Below are positions 58-17,287 of a stretch of 23,521 nt of DNA, one piece after another (the first letter of the stretch is position 1; every line of letters starts with the position of its first letter). The position numbers were made by a program, and so were the translations under genes. The stretch covers positions 1-23,521 of the IMG/VR virus record IMGVR_UViG_3300042328_002111, one strand, 5' to 3'. The DNA comes from a virus. The notes beneath the pieces were generated by a model. The model was not told the DNA's origin. It did not search any database and saw only the letters and a program-made list of their open reading frames with translations.

Positions 58-309
58 TTATCGCGTATTTTTTTCATTTTTCACATACTCTACGAGTTCG
101 TTAAACTTGTTCGCGTGATCTTGTTCTATAAACCAATAGATATGAAATTGAGGATTATTCTGTATTGCATATTCCCTGAATACTCTACACCCAATATGTC
201 TTAAAATAGTAGCTAATTTAACCACCCACTTTAAATCATCTTCGGTTCGTTCAACCCAAATGCAATGGACATGATCTGGGTATTTGGTTTTGAATTCATC
301 TTCGGTCAT
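58..309 (-). CDS. Small hypothetical protein, last gene of the early operon
   Basis: An 83-residue acidic protein with no family I recognise. Its middle (around residues 54-75) reads as a beta strand (FHIYWFIE) followed by a helix with D-H-A-N-K-F, which loosely recalls the strand-helix end of the W-F-L-x-W family upstream but lacks the terminal W. The start is fixed by a strong AGGAGG site six bases before the ATG. That site is inside an inverted repeat (313-346) whose loop holds a late-type promoter box, so the gene may be silent on early read-through transcripts and expressed late. It is separated by 44 bases from the gene upstream, unlike the overlapping genes before it. Confidence 0.75.
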   Translation of the reverse strand: MTEDEFKTKYPDHVHCIWVERTEDDLKWVVKLATILRHIGCRVFREYAIQNNPQFHIYWFIEQDHANKFNELVEYVKNEKNTR

Positions 310-312
310 GAT

Positions 313-346
313 ATTCCTCCTATCATTATTTATTGGTAGGAGGAAT
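313..346 (-). promoter_or_regulatory. RBS-sequestering hairpin with late promoter box in its loop
   Basis: ATTCCTCCTA at 313-322 and TAGGAGGAAT at 337-346 are a perfect 10-bp inverted repeat with a 14-base loop. On the minus-strand mRNA the distal arm contains the AGGAGG ribosome site of the gene at 58-309 and the proximal arm is its exact complement. The loop contains AATAAATA (327-334 on the minus strand), close to the T4 late consensus TATAAATA. A transcript started there would lack the proximal arm and leave the ribosome site free. Confidence 0.75.
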
Positions 347-353
347 TCAATCG

Positions 354-623
354 TTATACTCGTTCTTCAATTGGGATTACTTCGTAACTTTCAACTTTAC
401 GAATTGGGACTAATCCCAGACCTTGATGTAATGGTAATTTTAATGGTCTACCGTTAATATCCCATTCTAAAGGCATATTATAACAGTCAAAGCACACATA
501 CCCAACAATCTTGTCATCGGTGCATTTTTCATAATCGATAATAACTGGATAACCAGCTGCTGATTTGAAGCCAAAAGCTTGCATTAGAAAACCGTGATGT
601 AAATGTTTTTGAATAAATGTCAT
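354..623 (-). CDS. Hypothetical phage protein
   Basis: An 89-residue protein of unknown function. Visible features are a pair of cysteines in C-F-D-C (around residues 45-48) plus C34, which could be a partial metal site, and a mixed hydrophobic pattern suggesting a small beta-rich fold. The ATG overlaps the stop of the thioesterase gene upstream as ATGA, so translation is probably coupled. It lacks the W-F-x-L-x-W ending of most genes in this operon. Confidence 0.7.
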   Translation of the reverse strand: MTFIQKHLHHGFLMQAFGFKSAAGYPVIIDYEKCTDDKIVGYVCFDCYNMPLEWDINGRPLKLPLHQGLGLVPIRKVESYEVIPIEERV

Positions 624-3248: not shown

Positions 3249-3395
3249 TTATATTCCTAATTCAAAGATTGTGTTGTAAAGGTTGAATAATTCTTCATCT
3301 GATAAATTATACACCTCAGTAACCTGTATGTCAAATATTTCTTCCAAGGATTCATCCCAGTGGTTAGCAATCCGTTCTAGTATTAAATCTCTCAT
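3249..3395 (-). CDS. 48-residue hypothetical protein
   Basis: A short acidic ORF that fills the gap between two neighbours exactly. It starts M-R-D-L-I-L-E-R-I-A-N-H-W-D, continues through an acidic helix-rich middle with L-S-D-E-E-L-F-N-L-Y, and ends I-F-E-L-G-I. Its ATG overlaps the upstream stop as ATGA, and its stop lies just before the next ATG, so it fits the spacing of the operon perfectly. L-S-D-E-E-L-x-x-L-Y helices are common in small phage proteins, but I cannot assign a role. Confidence 0.7.
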   Translation of the reverse strand: MRDLILERIANHWDESLEEIFDIQVTEVYNLSDEELFNLYNTIFELGI

Positions 3396-3978: not shown

Positions 3979-4249
3979 TGGTTTTTAAAATGTACATTGT
4001 AACATATGGCCCATCAACTATCACTAAATCTTCAGGGTACTTATTGTGAGAGCCAGTATACCATGTACTAGTTTTCACATTCAACAATTGTACCTTAACC
4101 ATTTTGGGATTCAATTTGGTGACTCTTGCTATCTTCATATTATTGTGTAAACTGACTGCTACAACATCACCAATCTTTAACAAACGTCCCAAAATGTCTC
4201 GGTGTTCAATTAGTGGTTTAGGTGTTCTCGTTTTCTTCTCTGTTGTCAT
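3971..4249 (-). CDS. Conserved small phage protein, SH3/KOW-like barrel
   Basis: A 92-residue basic protein. Residues 18-55 (D-I-L-G-R-L-L-K-I-G-D-V-V-A, then R-V-T-K-L and K-M-V-K-V) have the alternation of a small beta barrel of the KOW/SH3 type: G-D-x-V strand, a turn, then two strands. From memory, similar small proteins recur in T4-like phages, without known function. Starts behind GGGAAG, which lies inside the coding end of the upstream gene (32-base overlap). The end (V-T-M-Y-I-L-K) loosely echoes the W-motif ending but lacks W. Confidence 0.7.
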   Translation of the reverse strand: MTTEKKTRTPKPLIEHRDILGRLLKIGDVVAVSLHNNMKIARVTKLNPKMVKVQLLNVKTSTWYTGSHNKYPEDLVIVDGPYVTMYILKTSA

Positions 4250-5922: not shown

Positions 5923-6164
5923 GACCATCTCAGTAAAAACCAGGTATAATTTGCATCGTCCTCAAATTCTGCATATTTTGGCTCATCGTATGACGGCTTA
6001 ATCTTACATTTATTTTCTTGTTCAAAATGCTTATAAACTAGTTCCATTTGTTTAGAGAATACCTGATCAAGATTGCCAGTGAATTCAACCATCGGCGAAT
6101 GTGCAACCGAATATTTACTGGCTTTACGAACAGCGACATCCCTAGTAAGCGATAATTTTTTCAT
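5919..6164 (-). CDS. Small W-motif family protein
   Basis: An 81-residue paralogue beginning M-K-K-L-S-L-T-R and ending F-E-D-D-A-N-Y-T-W-F-L-L-R-W-S, closest in its ending to 2340-2558. The ATG at 6164 makes TGATG with the upstream stop behind GGGGTG; in-frame starts up to 6191 lie inside the upstream gene. Function unknown. Confidence 0.74.
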   Translation of the reverse strand: MKKLSLTRDVAVRKASKYSVAHSPMVEFTGNLDQVFSKQMELVYKHFEQENKCKIKPSYDEPKYAEFEDDANYTWFLLRWS

Positions 6165-6520
6165 CAAGCACCCCATCTTATAATAAACCAATTTCTGTCA
6201 GCTGCATTTCGGAAAATAAATCGATCATCAGGTACTAATTTCCACCGATCACCTAGAATTTCTCCGAATACTTCTTCACACCATTTAACGCAGTCTTGAA
6301 CATGGATCTTACTACTTGGACTAACCCAATATACATAATCTTGGTAATCAGTATAATCATCGCCTTGACGCAATGGTCTTGTATCATATCGCGTTCTCAA
6401 TGAAAATATCTGACCAGCTTGGCTTGTCATTGGTTGAACCCCCACGATATTTTGTGCAATCAATTCTGGTTGTACTCTGCGTATCATTGACAAAATTGAT
6501 TGTTTTGATAACTCTTTCAT
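6164..6520 (-). CDS. W-motif protein with gp23-like capsid segment at N-terminus
   Basis: A 118-residue two-part protein. Residues 9-45 (S-M-I-R-R-V-Q-P-E-L-I-A-Q then N-I-V-G-V-Q-P-M, G-Q-I-F-S-L-R-T-R-Y) match, by memory, the segment of T4 major capsid protein gp23 that reads M-V-R-R-A-I-P-N-L-I-A, I-C-G-V-Q-P-M, G-Q-V-F-A-L-R-A-V-Y: about 20 of 37 positions identical. Residues 74-118 are the family module: V-K-W-C-E-E-V-F-G, D-R-W, F-I-F-R-N-A-A-D-R-N-W-F-I-I-R-W-G-A. No capsid protein gene lies nearby, so this is a fusion or mimic, not a truncated mcp in place. AAGGAG lies 8 bases before the ATG. It may bind capsid or scaffold, but that is inference. Confidence 0.82.
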   Translation of the reverse strand: MKELSKQSILSMIRRVQPELIAQNIVGVQPMTSQAGQIFSLRTRYDTRPLRQGDDYTDYQDYVYWVSPSSKIHVQDCVKWCEEVFGEILGDRWKLVPDDRFIFRNAADRNWFIIRWGA

Positions 6521-7306: not shown

Positions 7307-7335
7307 ATTATACTCCTTCTTATGGTGGATGTCAA
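7307..7335 (-). promoter_or_regulatory. Consensus sigma70 promoter of the minus-strand operon
   Basis: On the minus strand, TTGACA (7335-7330), a 17-base spacer and TATAAT (7312-7307): both hexamers and the spacing are perfect consensus. It points into the W-motif operon, so these are probably immediate-early genes read by host RNA polymerase. The -35 hexamer overlaps a plus-strand late box at 7334-7341. Confidence 0.85.
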
Positions 7336-7341
7336 TAAATA
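7334..7341 (+). promoter_or_regulatory. Late promoter box (AATAAATA)
   Basis: AATAAATA on the plus strand differs by one base from the T4 late consensus TATAAATA. It lies 17 bases before the epimerase ATG, behind which CAGAGG serves as ribosome site. It overlaps the -35 box of the early promoter facing the other way. Confidence 0.6.
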
Positions 7342-7358
7342 ATTACAGAGGCATACAA

Positions 7359-8171
7359 ATGAGAATACTAGTCACCGGTGCCAACGGATTTGTTGGACGT
7401 AATATGCTCGAATGGCTATCCCAAGAAGAATTCTGGGAAATCGAGACATGGGAATGGGATCCTAATAATTTACCTGATGTAAAAAAATATAAATGGGTCA
7501 TACATCTGGGTGCTGTTACAGATACCAGTGATGCTGACGTTGATACGATTATACATAAGAACTATGAGTTCAGTCAATGGCTTTTTACTGAATGCAATAA
7601 GAATAAAGTGCATATGCAATATGCCAGTTCCAGCGCTGTTTATGGAAATAATAAGAATTTTTCGGAATTTGCTCCTTGTCATCCAGAAACCCCATATGCG
7701 TGGTCGAAATACTTATTTGATAGATGGGTATTGCAGCAAGAGCATAACATCTATGTTCAAGGATTTCGATACTTCAACGTGTATGGAAAATATATGCATA
7801 CCAAAGGAGAACGAGCTGATATCTTATGTAAGTGGCGAGAAGAGGCCAAAAATGAAGGAAAGATCACTATTTGGGCAAATGCTGATCGCATCAAACGTGA
7901 TTGGGTTTGGGTCGGAGACGTATGCAAATTACATATTGATTTCATTAAAACTATCAATGGTTCAGGCATCTGGAATGTTGGCTCTGGACTATCACACAGT
8001 TATTTAGATTTAGCGGAAGAAATTGCAATTCAAGAAGGGGTACAAATTGAATTTGCCTCACCAAAACCAACTGAACAATATAATACAAAAGCCGACTTAA
8101 CCTTATTGAAATCAACTATCGGAAAACGTAAATGGTTATCAGTTTACGAATGGATTGATCGTGGATTGTGA
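7359..8171 (+). CDS. NAD(P)-dependent sugar nucleotide epimerase, HldD-like
   Basis: A 270-residue extended short-chain dehydrogenase. Residues 1-13 carry the Rossmann loop (V-T-G-A-N-G-F-V-G); S-S-S-A-V-Y-G around 90-96 gives the active-site serine and Y113-x-x-x-K117 the catalytic pair. F-R-Y-F-N-V-Y-G and R-D-W-V-W-V-G-D-V match the ADP-glycero-manno-heptose 6-epimerase HldD (RfaD) closely, as I remember it (F-R-Y-F-N-V-Y-G, R-D-F-V-Y-V-G-D-V). HldD is about 310 residues, so this is somewhat shorter. The product would act on nucleotide sugars for surface polysaccharide, perhaps to alter host LPS. The ATG at 7359 is used since it opens the Rossmann strand behind CAGAGG; the longer frame from 7263 crosses the divergent promoter. 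Confidence 0.85.
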   Translation: MRILVTGANGFVGRNMLEWLSQEEFWEIETWEWDPNNLPDVKKYKWVIHLGAVTDTSDADVDTIIHKNYEFSQWLFTECNKNKVHMQYASSSAVYGNNKNFSEFAPCHPETPYAWSKYLFDRWVLQQEHNIYVQGFRYFNVYGKYMHTKGERADILCKWREEAKNEGKITIWANADRIKRDWVWVGDVCKLHIDFIKTINGSGIWNVGSGLSHSYLDLAEEIAIQEGVQIEFASPKPTEQYNTKADLTLLKSTIGKRKWLSVYEWIDRGL

Positions 8172-8177
8172 TAAATA
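8170..8177 (+). promoter_or_regulatory. Late promoter box (GATAAATA)
   Basis: GATAAATACT overlaps the epimerase stop codon and stands 18 bases before the next ATG. It matches the T4 late consensus at seven of eight positions, and the same GATAAATACT recurs at 17289. Confidence 0.65.
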
Positions 8178-8195: not shown

Positions 8196-8555
8196 ATGAG
8201 AGCAAGTGAATTTTTAAATGAAGATAATTTTGGAGTAGGAAAAAAACGCCCTGCACGACCTGGATCTCGCGAAGACCAAGTTGGTCCACGTGGTCACAAA
8301 CCAGAAACGCAATATAGTGTGGATGAAGAATTCGAAATTGATGAAGCTGGAAAGGCTCCTAAAAAGCTGTGTCTTTCTAAAAAAACTGATGGTGAATTAG
8401 GTGCAAGCCAATTATCATCATGTCAAGCACAGGGCTTACGTAAAAGAAATACAAAACGAAAATTTAGAATTGGTAAGAAAGTTCAATCAATTGATGGTAA
8501 ATATGTGCGTTCGGCTGACTACGGAGGCCCGTTGCCCAAATGGAAAGGAAATTAG
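8196..8555 (+). CDS. Small basic protein with capsid-targeting-like leader
   Basis: A 119-residue protein in two parts. It starts M-R-A-S-E-F-L-N-E-D, very like the T4 internal-protein leader M-K-T-Y-Q-E-F-I-A-E, with L-N-E fitting the prohead protease cut rule [LI]-x-E. The C-terminal part (57-119) is highly basic: K-K-L-C-L-S-K-K, L-G-A-S-Q-L-S-S-C-Q-A-Q-G-L-R-K-R, then a Lys-rich stretch, ending Y-G-G-P-L-P-K-W-K. The L-G-A-S-Q-L-S-S-C block recurs, as I recall, in other T4-like phage proteins of unknown role. A basic packaged internal protein is a reasonable inference. GAGGAAG precedes the ATG. Confidence 0.75.
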   Translation: MRASEFLNEDNFGVGKKRPARPGSREDQVGPRGHKPETQYSVDEEFEIDEAGKAPKKLCLSKKTDGELGASQLSSCQAQGLRKRNTKRKFRIGKKVQSIDGKYVRSADYGGPLPKWKGN

Positions 8556-9951: not shown

Positions 9952-10500
9952 ATGAATTTAATAGGTAATTTAATTATATCCCCGCCATCAGTAAAAGGCA
10001 ATTTCTGGTATAAAACAGTCGCAATGATTGTTGAACATCATAATCAAGGAAGTATTGGTATAGTTCTTAATAAACGAAGTAACTATACTATAAATGAATT
10101 AGGTGATCAACTTGATTTAGATTTTGATATACCAGGATATGTCTATATAGGTGGTCCAGTCAATCCGAATAGTATTAGTTTAATTCATTCTAATGAATGG
10201 AGTTGCGATAATACACTTCGGCTTAATGAAAACTTCTCATTAAGCTCATCAAAAGAAATCATGCGACGATTTTCTAATAATGACTTACCAAAAAAGTGGA
10301 GGTTATTTTTTGGAATTTGTGGATGGCCACCTGGTAAACTACATAAAGAAATTAATGGCATTGAACCAGAAGATAAGAACACTAGTTGGTGTTTTACCAA
10401 TAGCGACACAGATTTAGTGTTTAATCATGACACCAAAGTACAATGGAATAAAGCATTAGAAAAAGCTGCAGAAGAATTTTCACAAAGCATATTATCATAA
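9952..10500 (+). CDS. YqgE/AlgH family protein (DUF179)
   Basis: A 182-residue protein of the YqgE/AlgH family, the usual length of the bacterial form (about 185). Seen in order: G-N-L-I-I-S-P-P (5-12), M-I-V-E-H-H-N-Q-G-S-I-G-I-V-L-N-K (about 26-42), Y-I-G-G-P-V-N-P near 64-71, F-F-G-I-C-G-W-P-P-G-K-L-H-K-E-I near 120-135 and a final W-C-F-T-N...V-F region. The bacterial role is poorly defined (AlgH has been linked to transcription control in Pseudomonas). Phage copies are uncommon. It sits with the YbaN homologue, another small host-type protein of unclear role. Confidence 0.85.
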   Translation: MNLIGNLIISPPSVKGNFWYKTVAMIVEHHNQGSIGIVLNKRSNYTINELGDQLDLDFDIPGYVYIGGPVNPNSISLIHSNEWSCDNTLRLNENFSLSSSKEIMRRFSNNDLPKKWRLFFGICGWPPGKLHKEINGIEPEDKNTSWCFTNSDTDLVFNHDTKVQWNKALEKAAEEFSQSILS

Positions 10501-10509
10501 GGATATATA

Positions 10510-10920
10510 ATGAAAAATTGGTTATGGAAAATATCTGGATTCATATTACTAGGTATTGGGTATCTCGGTATTATAACCCCAGGATTGCCATTCAGTCCAT
10601 TTATTGTCGGTTCTGCTATATGTTTTAGCAAAAGTAGTCCAGCTATGCATAAATGGTTATATAATCACAAATTTTTTGGTCCGTTTTTAAGTAATTGGGT
10701 CAATAATAAAGTGTTTCCAACAAAAATGAAATACATGATGTTAGCTGTCATGTCTAGTTCATTAGTTATTTTATGGTTTACTACACACAATTCTACCACA
10801 ATCGCATATTCTGGTGGTTTTATGATATTAGTCTCAATATGGGCTTGGAGATTTCCTGGAAGTCTTAATGAATATTATGAAAGAGAATCATCTGGTAAGA
10901 AAATAGGCTGGTTCAAATAA
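10510..10920 (+). CDS. YbaN/DUF454 family inner-membrane protein
   Basis: A 136-residue membrane protein. The start W-K-I-S-G-F-I-L-L-G-I-G-Y-L-G-I-I-T-P-G-L-P-F-S-P-F matches the DUF454 pattern G-x-x-x-L-G-x-[IV]-G-x-x-[LT]-P-x-L-P-[TF]-[TS]-P-F, then C-F-S-K-S-S-P-A-M-H-K-W-L and H-K-F-F-G-P. Hydrophobic helices lie at about 8-24, 28-38, 76-92 and 97-112, with a polar C-terminus. Function is unknown in bacteria as well. AAGGA is 6 bases before the ATG; expressed with YqgE by position. Confidence 0.85.
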   Translation: MKNWLWKISGFILLGIGYLGIITPGLPFSPFIVGSAICFSKSSPAMHKWLYNHKFFGPFLSNWVNNKVFPTKMKYMMLAVMSSSLVILWFTTHNSTTIAYSGGFMILVSIWAWRFPGSLNEYYERESSGKKIGWFK

Positions 10921-11742: not shown

Positions 11743-12558
11743 ATGAAAAAATTATTTGCATTAATCTTATTAATGTCATCAGGAATGGTGCATGCTTGGG
11801 AACAAGTTGCCCCATATCCAATTGAAAAATGTCAAGTACAATCACCGTATGGCTTTCCACAAACTTCTAAACAAGGTGTAGCAATATGTCGTGCTGGTTA
11901 TGTTACATTAAACGATACTACTGCAAAATTACCAGTTTGGGTTTCTTATACATTATATCCTGAATATGCGTTAGGATGTGTTCCACGTTCTAATGGCTTT
12001 GCCCCCGATCAAAGCTTACCAAAAGGTAGTAGGGCAGAGCTAATCGATTTTAAAGGCAGCGGCTATGATATTGGTCACGTAGTACCCAATGCAGATCAAT
12101 CAAGGTTCGATCAAACAGAAAAAGAAAGTTTCTTATTAACTAATATGGTGGCTCAATTACCAGGAACTAATAGAGGAATAATTAAATTGACCGAAACTAA
12201 TATTCGTGGATGGGTAACACAGAGAAATCATCCATATGTAATTTATTCTGGTCCATTATATGGACCAGGTGATAAAACTATTGGTTTAAACCAAATAGTC
12301 GTTCCTCATGCATTTTATAAAATAGTAATTGACACAACAACTAATGAAGTTGCTGGATTTCTAATACCACATGTCGGAAATCAAGGAAATGACTTGACAA
12401 AAGTTAGAGCGCCAATTGATCAAATCCAACAATTATCAGGAGTCCAATTTGCATACCCAGCGAATGCGGTTGAATTACCATTAAATTATTTATGGCCTGT
12501 TGATTATAAAGCATTAACCGAAGCGAAAAGAGCTGCATGCAAAGGCAACGCTAACTAA
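11743..12558 (+). CDS. Secreted DNA/RNA non-specific endonuclease (NUC family)
   Basis: A 271-residue nuclease of the Serratia-nuclease/NUC1 type. Residues 1-18 are a classic signal peptide (M-K-K, a hydrophobic core, V-H-A then W), so the enzyme is exported to the periplasm. The beta-beta-alpha-metal site is Y-D-I-G-H-V-V-P-N-A-D around 108-118 (His112 as general base; the usual D-R-G-H is D-I-G-H), followed by L-T-N-M-V-A-Q and T-N-R-G with Asn143 as metal ligand, and a Glu at 151. Likely cuts DNA and RNA outside the cytoplasm: exclusion of incoming DNA or nutrient scavenging are inferences. CGGAGT precedes the ATG. The stop overlaps that of the converging GIY-YIG gene by four bases. Confidence 0.88.
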   Translation: MKKLFALILLMSSGMVHAWEQVAPYPIEKCQVQSPYGFPQTSKQGVAICRAGYVTLNDTTAKLPVWVSYTLYPEYALGCVPRSNGFAPDQSLPKGSRAELIDFKGSGYDIGHVVPNADQSRFDQTEKESFLLTNMVAQLPGTNRGIIKLTETNIRGWVTQRNHPYVIYSGPLYGPGDKTIGLNQIVVPHAFYKIVIDTTTNEVAGFLIPHVGNQGNDLTKVRAPIDQIQQLSGVQFAYPANAVELPLNYLWPVDYKALTEAKRAACKGNAN

Positions 12559-13484
12559 CCAGGTTTATATTTACAATTATCAAAATGCCAGCGTTTTGCG
12601 TTCGATGCATTGCTGGCATTACCACAATACGGACAAATCAATATTTCCTGTGGTGTTAGTTTTTTGCCCTTTCTTGACAAACTCATTTTCAATTTAGATT
12701 CTTCGGTATGTGTTCTACCGGCCATGGCCCCTACTTTTCCATACATTGGGTTATTTTCACCAGTGTTAGCTTCACTCAGTTTTTCCTTGAGCTCTTTTGC
12801 TCGTTCTACCCCGTATATTTCATCGAAGGTCTTTCCTTTACGCAATGCAATCGTTTCCGGAGAATGTTTCTTACCCGTAAAAGCACCAGGTTTTCCATAT
12901 CTATGATTTTTATCACCTAACATTTTTATACGTTTTTTCTCAGATATTTCTTTAGCCTTTTCTTCACCGAATATTTCATTATAACTTCTCCCTAACCTAG
13001 ATGTTTTGTGAATAATCTTCATCGGTTTTAATGATTCTTTATAAATCCATGTCTTTTTTAATTTATTGATTTTTTCTAATGCTTTTTCTTCCCCATATAA
13101 TTCAATATATGTTTTTCCCTTATTATTTGATAGTTGACCTTTATTTCGTATACTAATCATTTGTTTTTGCTTATCGGTCCATAATCTTCCTAATGTACCA
13201 TCCCCACCGAGGGTCATATTGTATCCAGAATGGTAACTATCATATAAATTGATAAAATATGTCTCCATTGCATTTTTTAAATAATCCCCTTCTAACGATT
13301 GATATATTATTTCAAAGGTAAATTTATCGATGCCATACTTTTTAATAGCATAGTATAAATGCGAATTTAGTTTTCTTGAGTTTCTAGTATGTTCTACGAT
13401 CCTTCTTTCAAAGTTATTTGTAAAACCTATATAAATTTTCTCATTAATTGTATTTGTAATTTTATAAATGGAATAAATATCCAT
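12555..13484 (-). CDS. GIY-YIG homing endonuclease with NUMOD3 repeats and zinc finger
   Basis: A 309-residue free-standing homing endonuclease, like T4 Seg proteins. The catalytic domain is residues 1-95: Y-S-I-Y-K (4-8), I-Y-I-G (17-20), Arg27 in E-R-R, Glu74 in M-E-T-Y-F-I, and G-Y-N-M-T-L-G-G. NUMOD3-type repeats follow, with repeated Y-G-x-E-[KR]-A, G-D-K-N-H-R-Y-G-K and G-E-N-N-P-M-Y-G-K. The end has C-P-Y-C and K-R-W-H-F-D-N-C-K as zinc finger. The ATG at 13484 is chosen because AAAAGGAG stands 7 bases before it and it opens the GIY domain. Transcribed against the surrounding late genes, from a palindromic late box at 13545; a 30-base hairpin lies in its leader. Confidence 0.9.
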   Translation of the reverse strand: MDIYSIYKITNTINEKIYIGFTNNFERRIVEHTRNSRKLNSHLYYAIKKYGIDKFTFEIIYQSLEGDYLKNAMETYFINLYDSYHSGYNMTLGGDGTLGRLWTDKQKQMISIRNKGQLSNNKGKTYIELYGEEKALEKINKLKKTWIYKESLKPMKIIHKTSRLGRSYNEIFGEEKAKEISEKKRIKMLGDKNHRYGKPGAFTGKKHSPETIALRKGKTFDEIYGVERAKELKEKLSEANTGENNPMYGKVGAMAGRTHTEESKLKMSLSRKGKKLTPQEILICPYCGNASNASNAKRWHFDNCKYKPG

Positions 13485-13544: not shown

Positions 13545-13556
13545 TATTTATAAATA
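13545..13556. promoter_or_regulatory. Bidirectional late promoter (TATTTATAAATA palindrome)
   Basis: TATTTATAAATA is its own reverse complement and so contains the perfect T4 late consensus TATAAATA on both strands (plus 13549-13556, minus 13552-13545). It lies between the minus-strand GIY-YIG gene and the plus-strand gene at 13629. Confidence 0.7.
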
Positions 13557-14246: not shown

Positions 14247-15434
14247 TTACAAAATTGATTTTAATGCATCGATTAAATCTTCAATCATTCCATCATCATG
14301 AAACGGAGTTGGTGCAAATCGCAATCGTTCAGTGCCAACATCTACTGTTGGAGAATTAATTGCTTGTACGTAAATACTATAATCATTTAATAATCTATCA
14401 CTAATTTCTCTAGCTCTTTTAGCATCACCAATCAAAACAGGTACGATATGTGTAACTGAATCCATCACTGGTATTCCAGCTTCCTTCATCATTTTTTTTA
14501 ATTTACTAGCTCGTTCTTGGTGTTTTTCTCTTAATTCATTATGAGCTTTTGAATATTTAACTGCAGCTAATGCTCCAGCGACAATAACTGGGCTCAATGA
14601 CGTACTAAAGATGAATCCATCCGCGATGCTTCGAATAGCATCAATTACTATAGAATCCCCTGCGATATAACCACCTTGTACACCAAATGCTTTGCCAAGC
14701 GTACCATTAACAATATCAACTCGATCTTGCAAATTCATTTCTTCTAACTCACCAGCACCAGTAAATCCTCTAACTCCTACTGCATGAACTTCATCACAGT
14801 ATGTAATAGCATTATATTTGTCAGCTAAATCACAAATTTCTTTAATAGGACTAATATCACCTTCCATACTGTATATGCTTTCAAATACAATACAGGGAAT
14901 ATTTTCATTTTGAACCGATTTCTTCAAACAATTTTCCAACTCTACTAAATCATTATGCTTGAATATTTGTTTAGATGCACGACTATGAACAATACCCATT
15001 ATTAGACTATTATGGTTTTTGCTATCACTTATAAATTCAATATTTGGGATAATTTTAGCCAATGCTATTAAACTTGACGTATTCGCTACATAAGCCGAAG
15101 TAAATAATAATGCACTCTCTTTTTTATGCAATGATGCCAATTCATGTTCTAATGCAACATGATAATGGGTAGTACCTGATATATTTCTCGTACCACCGGA
15201 TCCAGCACCTGTCATATCTAATGCTGTTCGCATTGCATCTAGTACTACTTTATGCTGTCCAAGTGATAGATAATCATTACTACACCAATTGACAATATTT
15301 TTAATGGCATATGGCCCATACCAGATTGCATTTGGAAATTTACCTTGTTCGCGTAGTATATCATTGAAAACTCTGTATTTTCCAGTTTCTTTTAAATTAT
15401 CGATAAGTTTGTTAAATGGTTCTTTGTTAATCAT
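14247..15434 (-). CDS. hemA: 5-aminolevulinate synthase (ALAS)
   Basis: A complete 395-residue PLP enzyme that joins glycine and succinyl-CoA to 5-aminolevulinate, first step of tetrapyrrole synthesis in alphaproteobacteria. Seen: Y-R-V-F-N-D-I-L-R near 20, [10 protein letters not shown] (51-60), [13 protein letters not shown] (76-88), Y-C-D-E-V-H-A-V-G (PLP Asp214, His217), and [14 protein letters not shown] with the PLP lysine at 248; end R-F-A-P-T-P-F-H. The T-R-N-I-S-G-T block and G-K-A-F-G-V-x-G-G-Y favour ALAS over 2-amino-3-ketobutyrate CoA ligase or AONS. All key residues are intact, so it is probably active. Encoded against the late genes, with a late box 5 bases before its ATG and CGGT as a poor ribosome site. 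Confidence 0.92.
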
Positions 15435-15685: not shown

Positions 15686-17287
15686 ATGACATATATTCAC
15701 CCAAACGATAATAATTTAAAAAATCTGCATAAAGCTATGCAATATAATGAGTCTGGTGAACCAGTTGTTCGCACACATGTTGATGGAATATCATTACAAG
15801 GCGATGTTCTGGTTGATAAGGTTAGAATTCAAATCGATACATTAGGGAATGTATGGGATGAAAATCATTCTGCACCAGTATCAATCGGTACTAATGGGCA
15901 AGTAACATTAAAAACGAGTTCTGCAGTTATAGGAAAAGTTCAGCAAGATGGTGATTGGACTGTTAAACAAGGTACTACCCCATGGGCTATTAGCGATAAT
16001 GGTGGTTCTATTACAGTGGATGGTAGTGTTTCAATTAGTAGTCTACCAGAAGTTGAAATAAAAAATGATAGTGGAAATCCTATTCCAGTTTCTATGGGAT
16101 TTGGCGCAATTGATGCGTTTGGTAGACAACGTGTTTCTGAGCCCTTTACTTTAGGTGATTATAAGCACTTATATGGTATCGACCCCGCTTTTATTGATTA
16201 TGCTGGAAATGGTGGTGCCATTGAATTTGTAAAAAATAAAGCATGTTGTACATTAACCACTACTTCTAATCCATCTAGTTTTATCATCCATCAAACAAAA
16301 TTTTATCATCATTATATGCCTGGTAAATCTCAAGTAATTTTTAGTAGTATAAATTTTGGAGCAGCTACACCGAACGTAGTTAAACGAACTGGATACTTTG
16401 ATGACAACGATGGAATTTATTTCGAACAAGCAGGCGATGGGACTTTATCATGGGTAATAAGAAGTTTTGTTTCTGGCGCTCCCATTGAAGTCAGGAAAAC
16501 TCAATCACAATGGAATTTAGATACTGTATCATGGTTGAACATACTTAATACACAATTAGTAGCGATTGATTTCCAGTGGCTGGGCGTTGGTAGAGTTAGG
16601 GTTGGATTTGCACATGATGGTGGTGTAGTTTATGTTCATGAATTTTTACATAGCAATAATTTACCAACTGTATATATGAGTAATCCAAATCTTCCCGTTA
16701 GATGCGAAATAAGAAATATTGGTACAACTACGGGTGGATCTATGGATCAAATATGTTCAACAGTATTCAGTGAAGGTGGCTATGTTGAAGCGGGACAGGA
16801 TTGGGCTGCTACTACACCTACATTAAAAGTGATAAATGCTGGAATTACTGCGCCAGTTATGGCAATTAGATTAAAAAATACATTTCATACATATTCAAAT
16901 AGAATGATTGTTCGCATGGGTAATTTGAATATATTCAGTGATGGTGTTAATATTAAATGGAGACTGATAAAATTACCAGCACAAGCATTTCTAACAGGTA
17001 ATTCATGGGTAGATGTGCATAATGATTCAGGTATTCAATATAATTCTACTGCTACCGCATGGACAGATGGGCAAGAAATGGATAGTGGATTTGTTGGTGC
17101 ATCTACCCAAGGTAGTCAAAAAGCAGGAGGCGCACCGGCTAGTAACATCCCATCATCTGCAAAAAAGAATTATATTGTGCAAAACTTTGACAGTACGGAT
17201 TCCGAGATATTTCTAGTAGTTGCAACTAATCTTGGCTCACAATCAACTAATGTTGGTGTTAGTATGCAATGGCGTGAAATCTATTAA
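15686..17287 (+). CDS. Virion structural protein, probably tail or baseplate
   Basis: A 533-residue protein of mainly beta-strand character, without signal peptide or membrane segments. A linker-like N-terminal part (1-140) with many T, S, V and G is followed by D-A-F-G-R-Q-R-V-S-E-P-F-T-L near 146-159, a block I know from phage structural proteins of this kind, and a long beta-rich C-terminal region (170-533) ending M-Q-W-R-E-I-Y. Starts one base after the previous stop, behind AGAGG. Probably a surface-exposed virion protein; no enzymatic motif is visible. Confidence 0.78.
   Translation: MTYIHPNDNNLKNLHKAMQYNESGEPVVRTHVDGISLQGDVLVDKVRIQIDTLGNVWDENHSAPVSIGTNGQVTLKTSSAVIGKVQQDGDWTVKQGTTPWAISDNGGSITVDGSVSISSLPEVEIKNDSGNPIPVSMGFGAIDAFGRQRVSEPFTLGDYKHLYGIDPAFIDYAGNGGAIEFVKNKACCTLTTTSNPSSFIIHQTKFYHHYMPGKSQVIFSSINFGAATPNVVKRTGYFDDNDGIYFEQAGDGTLSWVIRSFVSGAPIEVRKTQSQWNLDTVSWLNILNTQLVAIDFQWLGVGRVRVGFAHDGGVVYVHEFLHSNNLPTVYMSNPNLPVRCEIRNIGTTTGGSMDQICSTVFSEGGYVEAGQDWAATTPTLKVINAGITAPVMAIRLKNTFHTYSNRMIVRMGNLNIFSDGVNIKWRLIKLPAQAFLTGNSWVDVHNDSGIQYNSTATAWTDGQEMDSGFVGASTQGSQKAGGAPASNIPSSAKKNYIVQNFDSTDSEIFLVVATNLGSQSTNVGVSMQWREIY

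Follow-up and report, generated by a model that had tools for sequence, protein, structure and literature searches.

A predicted T4-type early-off/late-on hairpin at the ribosome binding site of a small gene in an uncultivated virus

Positions 313-346 on the minus strand of a 23.5-kb uncultivated-virus record (the whole 23,521-nt stretch that we analyzed, hereafter the window) probably form a T4-type translational hairpin that would keep gene 58-309 (minus strand, 83 aa, function unassigned) off early in infection and allow its translation late, a reading to which we assign a probability of about 0.77. A switch of the kind known from T4 genes e and I-TevI had been proposed in a first-pass annotation of this DNA, and it remains the best-supported reading in view of the layout, energetics, promoter variant, spacing, early promoters and a second instance in a relative (G007). 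That annotation had the hairpin and the motif in its loop right; the strand is corrected here to minus, and the part of the proposal that placed the gene at the end of an operon did not hold up (see below). Early in infection, host RNA polymerase starting at the sigma-70 promoters 7335-7307 and 3334-3306 (minus strand) would read through a series of small genes into 58-309, and in the resulting long mRNA ATTCCTCCTA would pair with TAGGAGGAAT, hiding AGGAGG and blocking initiation. In the late phase, a gp55-type sigma factor would direct initiation from AATAAATA within the loop, at about position 321; the late mRNA would lack the 5' arm, so that the Shine-Dalgarno (SD) sequence would be free and 58-309 could be made. 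We infer the read-through, the use and timing of the late promoter, the repression and the release from features that can be read in the DNA, namely the hairpin, the promoter motifs with their lineage-wide enrichment, the spacing and the predicted opening energies.

Hairpin structure and predicted opening energies

Read along the minus strand from 346 to 313, the element consists of the 5' arm ATTCCTCCTA (337-346, the anti-Shine-Dalgarno), the 14-nt loop CCAATAAATAATGA and the 3' arm TAGGAGGAAT (313-322), which contains the SD AGGAGG at 321-316 and is followed by ATC and the ATG start codon (309-307). The stem is a perfect 10 bp with Watson-Crick pairs at 10 of 10 positions, two additional pairs can form within the loop, and the minimum free energy is -14.1 kcal/mol (z = -4.5), with none of 200 shuffles folding equally well. 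When the 42 nt upstream were shuffled and the final 18 nt from SD to ATG were held fixed, a stem of at least 10 bp over the SD did not arise in 5000 shuffles, and one of at least 8 bp arose in 15. The hairpin is beyond chance expectation, and these counts (10/10 pairs, 0/5000 shuffles) confirm the perfect 10-bp repeat, pairing with the AGGAGG of 58-309 and carrying the motif in its loop, that had been noted at first pass. An Rfam search gave no match, nor did blastn and tblastn searches of the hairpin locus and the 58-309 protein against named phages. The 83-aa product has no Pfam or PHROG family match; its AlphaFold model is an alpha/beta fold of low-to-moderate confidence, with only weak matches to the PDB (E at least 0.08, none significant).

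Opening the SD of 58-309 was calculated to cost 12.5-14.4 kcal/mol in the long message and 3.1 kcal/mol in the predicted late message, and the same calculation for T4 gene e gave a drop from 14.1 to 3.5 kcal/mol. Removal of 7 nt of the 5' arm was enough to lower the cost at 58-309 from 14.4 to 5.3 kcal/mol. By both folding and opening energies, the SD is paired in a stable stem on the read-through mRNA. At 14.5, the cost for the interval from -12 to the start codon of 58-309 exceeds that of every other gene among 50 of the window (median 3.9), and 58-309 is the sole gene that the opening-cost score picked among them. In a blind run of the score on T4, the top genes with a late motif were e, segB, 49, I-TevI and I-TevII, which are listed as proven or proposed to be hairpin-controlled (PMC2988022, PMC3014915). 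High opening cost was associated with a late motif in T4 (p = 0.002); with the six genomes of the virus's group pooled, the association was not significant (p = 0.31). Simple as it is, an energy-based scan of this kind recovers known T4 cases and is usable for finding others in metagenomic phages.

The loop motif and the transcription unit

The predicted T4-type late promoter AATAAATA lies at 327-334 (minus strand) inside the hairpin loop, and with the box placed at -13 to -6 as in T4, transcription is predicted to start at 321. This position is the first base of the SD (the A of AGGAGG), so the late leader would be very short, at 12 nt. At the level of sequence, the promoter is therefore placed such that its transcript would lack the 5' arm. 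Over the whole window, the bare octamer AATAAATA is not over-represented (5 found versus 6.5 expected); just upstream of starts, ATAAATA is enriched (6 versus 0.9). Across six genomes of the group, ATAAATA is the top-enriched word near starts among 21 composition-matched 7-mers, being found upstream of 76 genes while the 20 other permutations reach at most 45, and it is among the top words upstream of T4 genes too. Near starts in the group, the first motif position is T in 27 instances, A in 28, G in 20 and C in 4, so that T, A and G are used about equally; in T4, the commonest variant at -13 is A, in 9 of 50 listed late promoters (PMC2988020). There are 15 NATAAATA sites in the window with both strands counted, from which the chance of finding one inside a 14-nt loop is, by simple arithmetic, about 0.002.

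Of the genes of the window with a close upstream ATAAATA, the plus strand has five and the minus strand one, 58-309. The spacing from motif to ATG is 17 nt at 58-309, 17 nt at the epimerase gene (7359-8171; AATAAATA at 7334-7341, plus strand) and 18 nt at gene 8196-8555 (GATAAATA at 8170-8177, plus strand). The latter two served as internal comparisons: no strong hairpin covers the ribosome binding site (RBS) of the epimerase gene, and with the T4 layout applied to both, the SD would likewise fall at or near the 5' end of the message. The epimerase motif (7334-7341) also overlaps the -35 hexamer (7335-7330) of a divergent minus-strand early promoter, so that in this region (7307-7341) the early and the late polymerase could be mutually exclusive.

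Upstream of the hairpin, gene 354-623 (minus strand) belongs to the same transcription unit and has its stop codon 7 nt before the 5' arm, a distance equal to the nudE-e gap in T4. The minus strand of the window has three perfect sigma-70 early-type promoters (TTGACA-17-TATAAT; 7335-7307, 3334-3306 and 13598-13570) and the plus strand none; two of the three lie upstream of the hairpin within an array of small genes, one heading the array (7307-7335) and the other reading toward the hairpin from inside it (3306-3334). None of four shuffled-hexamer controls was found in the window, and related contigs each contain 10-28 copies of TTGACA-17-TATAAT versus 0-1 per control. A terminator scan of the minus strand between the sigma-70 promoters and 58-309 gave no terminator-like site; together with the upstream promoters, this leads us to expect an early read-through mRNA of 58-309. 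The gene had been annotated as the end of an early operon, which is wrong: in G002, a 66-aa gene overlaps the end of the 58-309 ortholog and more same-strand genes lie beyond it, so the window merely stops there. A late transcript started in the loop would enter these downstream genes, which may consequently be made both early and late, with 58-309 itself made late only.

The array spans 7300-58 of the minus strand, with some 30 small genes packed closely together. Many of them encode a common C-terminal WFxLRW-like motif, at or close to the point where the next gene starts; they apparently constitute an expanded family, so far without a name. One of its members, 6164-6520 (minus strand, 118 aa), matches the T4 major capsid protein gp23 over residues 7-54 (phrog_138 positions 62-109, E 2.9e-13), and this segment is fused to a WFIIRWG tail. 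Similar gp23-like pieces are present in G001, G002, G003 and G004, and the product is possibly a capsid-derived decoy or regulator. The plus strand from 7359 carries virion-type genes, including virion structural proteins and a lysin related to baseplate-hub proteins, along with several metabolic genes. An unusual set of host-like genes comprises a phage-borne 5-aminolevulinate synthase (14247-15434, minus strand; TIGR01821, E 3e-169, above the curated cut-off), YqgE/AlgH (9952-10500), DUF454 (10510-10920) and a 4HBT thioesterase (620-985). At 13545-13556, the palindrome TATTTATAAATA presents the TATAAATA motif on both strands and adjoins 13598-13570, the third of the perfect sigma-70 promoters, which belongs to a gene for a GIY-YIG/NUMOD3 homing endonuclease. 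The GIY-YIG gene at 12555-13484 was rejected as a further case: late-type motifs do lie close to it, but there is no strong sequestration of its SD.

Searching viral contigs with the structural protein encoded at 15686-17287 of the window yielded 174 related stretches, of which 80 were kept. Among related contigs, the T4 late sigma factor gp55 was found in 5 of 20 searched, gp33 in 3 of 19, and a near-full gp23 in 7 of 20 searched. The presence of gp55 and gp23 in related contigs indicates that the phage is a member of the T4-like group or has genes in common with it. Neither gp55 nor gp33 was found in the partial contigs of this phage itself, and gp55 was not found in the closest contigs G001, G002, G003 and G007 (68-96 kb, partial). 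T4 proteins had few matches in G001 and G003, which seem not to span the core region.

Relatives and the wider viral collection

The hairpin is identical in five contigs that are about 99% identical to the window, and because of this identity they offer no covariation and no independent evidence. In four of these five relatives, a TnpB-type element (393-aa ORF; L003-L006 from position 4171; G001:68206-69387) interrupts the 58-309 ortholog after codon 57 and leaves the hairpin and late motif intact, so 58-309 is dispensable at least there. When 48 related contigs were searched for 58-309 orthologs, only that of G003 was identified. G003 is 78% identical over the neighboring genes; its ortholog (33-35% identical) has neither hairpin nor late motif, an extra small gene stands in the hairpin's place, and the ortholog starts at a TAATG overlap. 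Hairpin and late motif are thus co-present or co-absent, which is compatible with the device having been gained or lost locally.

A second instance was found in G007, a close relative (96% identity to the window in the structural protein). Before gene 60309-61403 (minus strand; L173:309-1403), an 11-bp stem with CATAAATA in its loop region has the SD at the start of its 3' arm and the start codon immediately after; its folding energy is -20.5 kcal/mol (z = -5.1), and the predicted opening cost falls from 20.3 to 3.8. This independent hairpin supports the view that the device is in use in this lineage. The 364-aa product has no family match, and its N-terminus looks GIY-YIG-like by eye only. 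A scan with the short pattern TCCT-ATAAATA-AGGA matched 4 of 49 contigs including the window, with one control match, numbers too small for a comparison.

In the wider viral collection, CTCCT-ATAAATA-AGGAG stands before start codons in many viral contigs, and the genes that it precedes include head-tail adaptors, a head maturation protease, a baseplate hub, a large terminase and a homing endonuclease. Among the matches listed, an ORF came next in 53 of 109 distinct cases; with the loop word scrambled, the figure was 29 of 106 (Fisher p = 0.001 among the matches listed). Since late promoters are found near SDs anyway, a sample selected by late motif, SD and ATG with no selection for a 5' arm was also taken; here the SD had a pairing partner 5' of the motif in 15 of 113 cases, no clear excess over the 10.3 expected from shuffles. 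At L245, L304, L231 and L264, the loop holds a late motif, the 3' arm is the SD, and a U-run follows before the ATG, an arrangement that looks like a terminator, promoter and RBS combined. The gene behind the element is a head-tail adaptor at L231 (PHROG), and by eye there are two look-alikes and one gp5-like gene. Hairpins of the collection precede neck protein, head maturation protease, baseplate hub/lysozyme and large terminase genes, some with a U-run. We raise as a tentative idea, and a rather doubtful one at present, that in uncultivated T4-like phages the loop-promoter hairpin could be a general insulator, both of late structural genes and of late genes stranded in early operons. Under this idea translation would come only from transcripts started in the loop, and the U-run, where there is one, would also terminate read-through.

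Known systems and alternative explanations

The closest parallel is T4 gene e, which encodes lysozyme and in which the late promoter likewise lies between the arms, AGGAGG is in the 3' arm, the upstream stop leaves a 7-nt gap and the SD opening cost drops from about 14 to about 3.5 kcal/mol. Gene e differs in having two TATAAATA boxes and mapped 5' ends, whereas the window has one AATAAATA and a predicted start on the first SD base, and the gene products are unrelated. I-TevI, I-TevII, I-TevIII, segB and Aeh1 mobE also carry a late (or middle) promoter within a hairpin that hides the RBS, and they lie within an early or middle unit (PMC2988022); these are homing endonuclease genes, whereas no endonuclease domain was detected in 58-309. 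For T4 soc and gene 49, long early transcripts hide the SD and/or AUG and late starts free them (PMC3014915), but their stems are longer or AU-rich, the placement of motif and SD is different, and the genes are unrelated.

Four other explanations were weighed against a T4-type switch. Under translational coupling, 58-309 would be translated only after ribosomes finishing 354-623 melt the stem, and AATAAATA would be incidental or secondary. The 354-623 stop is close enough to the 5' arm for a terminating ribosome to reach the first stem bases, and many neighbors in the array overlap stop-to-start, as the G003 ortholog does at its TAATG. T4 e, however, has an equal gap after nudE and its long transcripts are nevertheless repressed about 100-fold (PMC3014915), so a close upstream stop does not abolish such control, which weakens this alternative; coupling also leaves unexplained why the loop should contain a late-type promoter at the right spacing (chance about 0.002), and we consider coupling unlikely. 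Only about half as plausible as coupling is the view that the repeat is a DNA operator or RNA site at which a phage protein represses the late promoter or the RBS. An inverted repeat surrounding a promoter would suit such a site, and T4 I-TevI does autoregulate by binding an operator of its own that overlies the late promoter (PMC2988022), but no further copy of the inverted repeat was found elsewhere in the window, one arm exactly matches the anti-SD complement, and hiding of the RBS suffices with no protein. Protein binding as a layer added to RBS hiding is possible.

A stable stem between 354-623 and 58-309 could also be an intrinsic terminator or a stabilizer of an mRNA end, which we judge very improbable: no U-run follows the stem on either strand (AATATCATG on the minus strand, TCAATCG on the plus strand), for which the terminator was rejected, the hairpin is absent from the terminator-scan list, and the operon continues beyond 58-309. 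Least probable of all is a chance inverted repeat with no regulatory role. The absence of the hairpin at 78% identity in G003 and the lack of covariation would fit chance, but the shuffles did not reproduce the stem, it is unchanged in five relatives, and the late motif in its loop has a spacing like that of other genes in the window.

The control device has been worked out chiefly in T-even phages and Aeromonas phage Aeh1. An early-off/late-on hairpin at 313-346 would add an uncultivated T4-like lineage and a gene with no assigned function and, if the matches before structural genes hold, the textbook cases would understate how common the device is.
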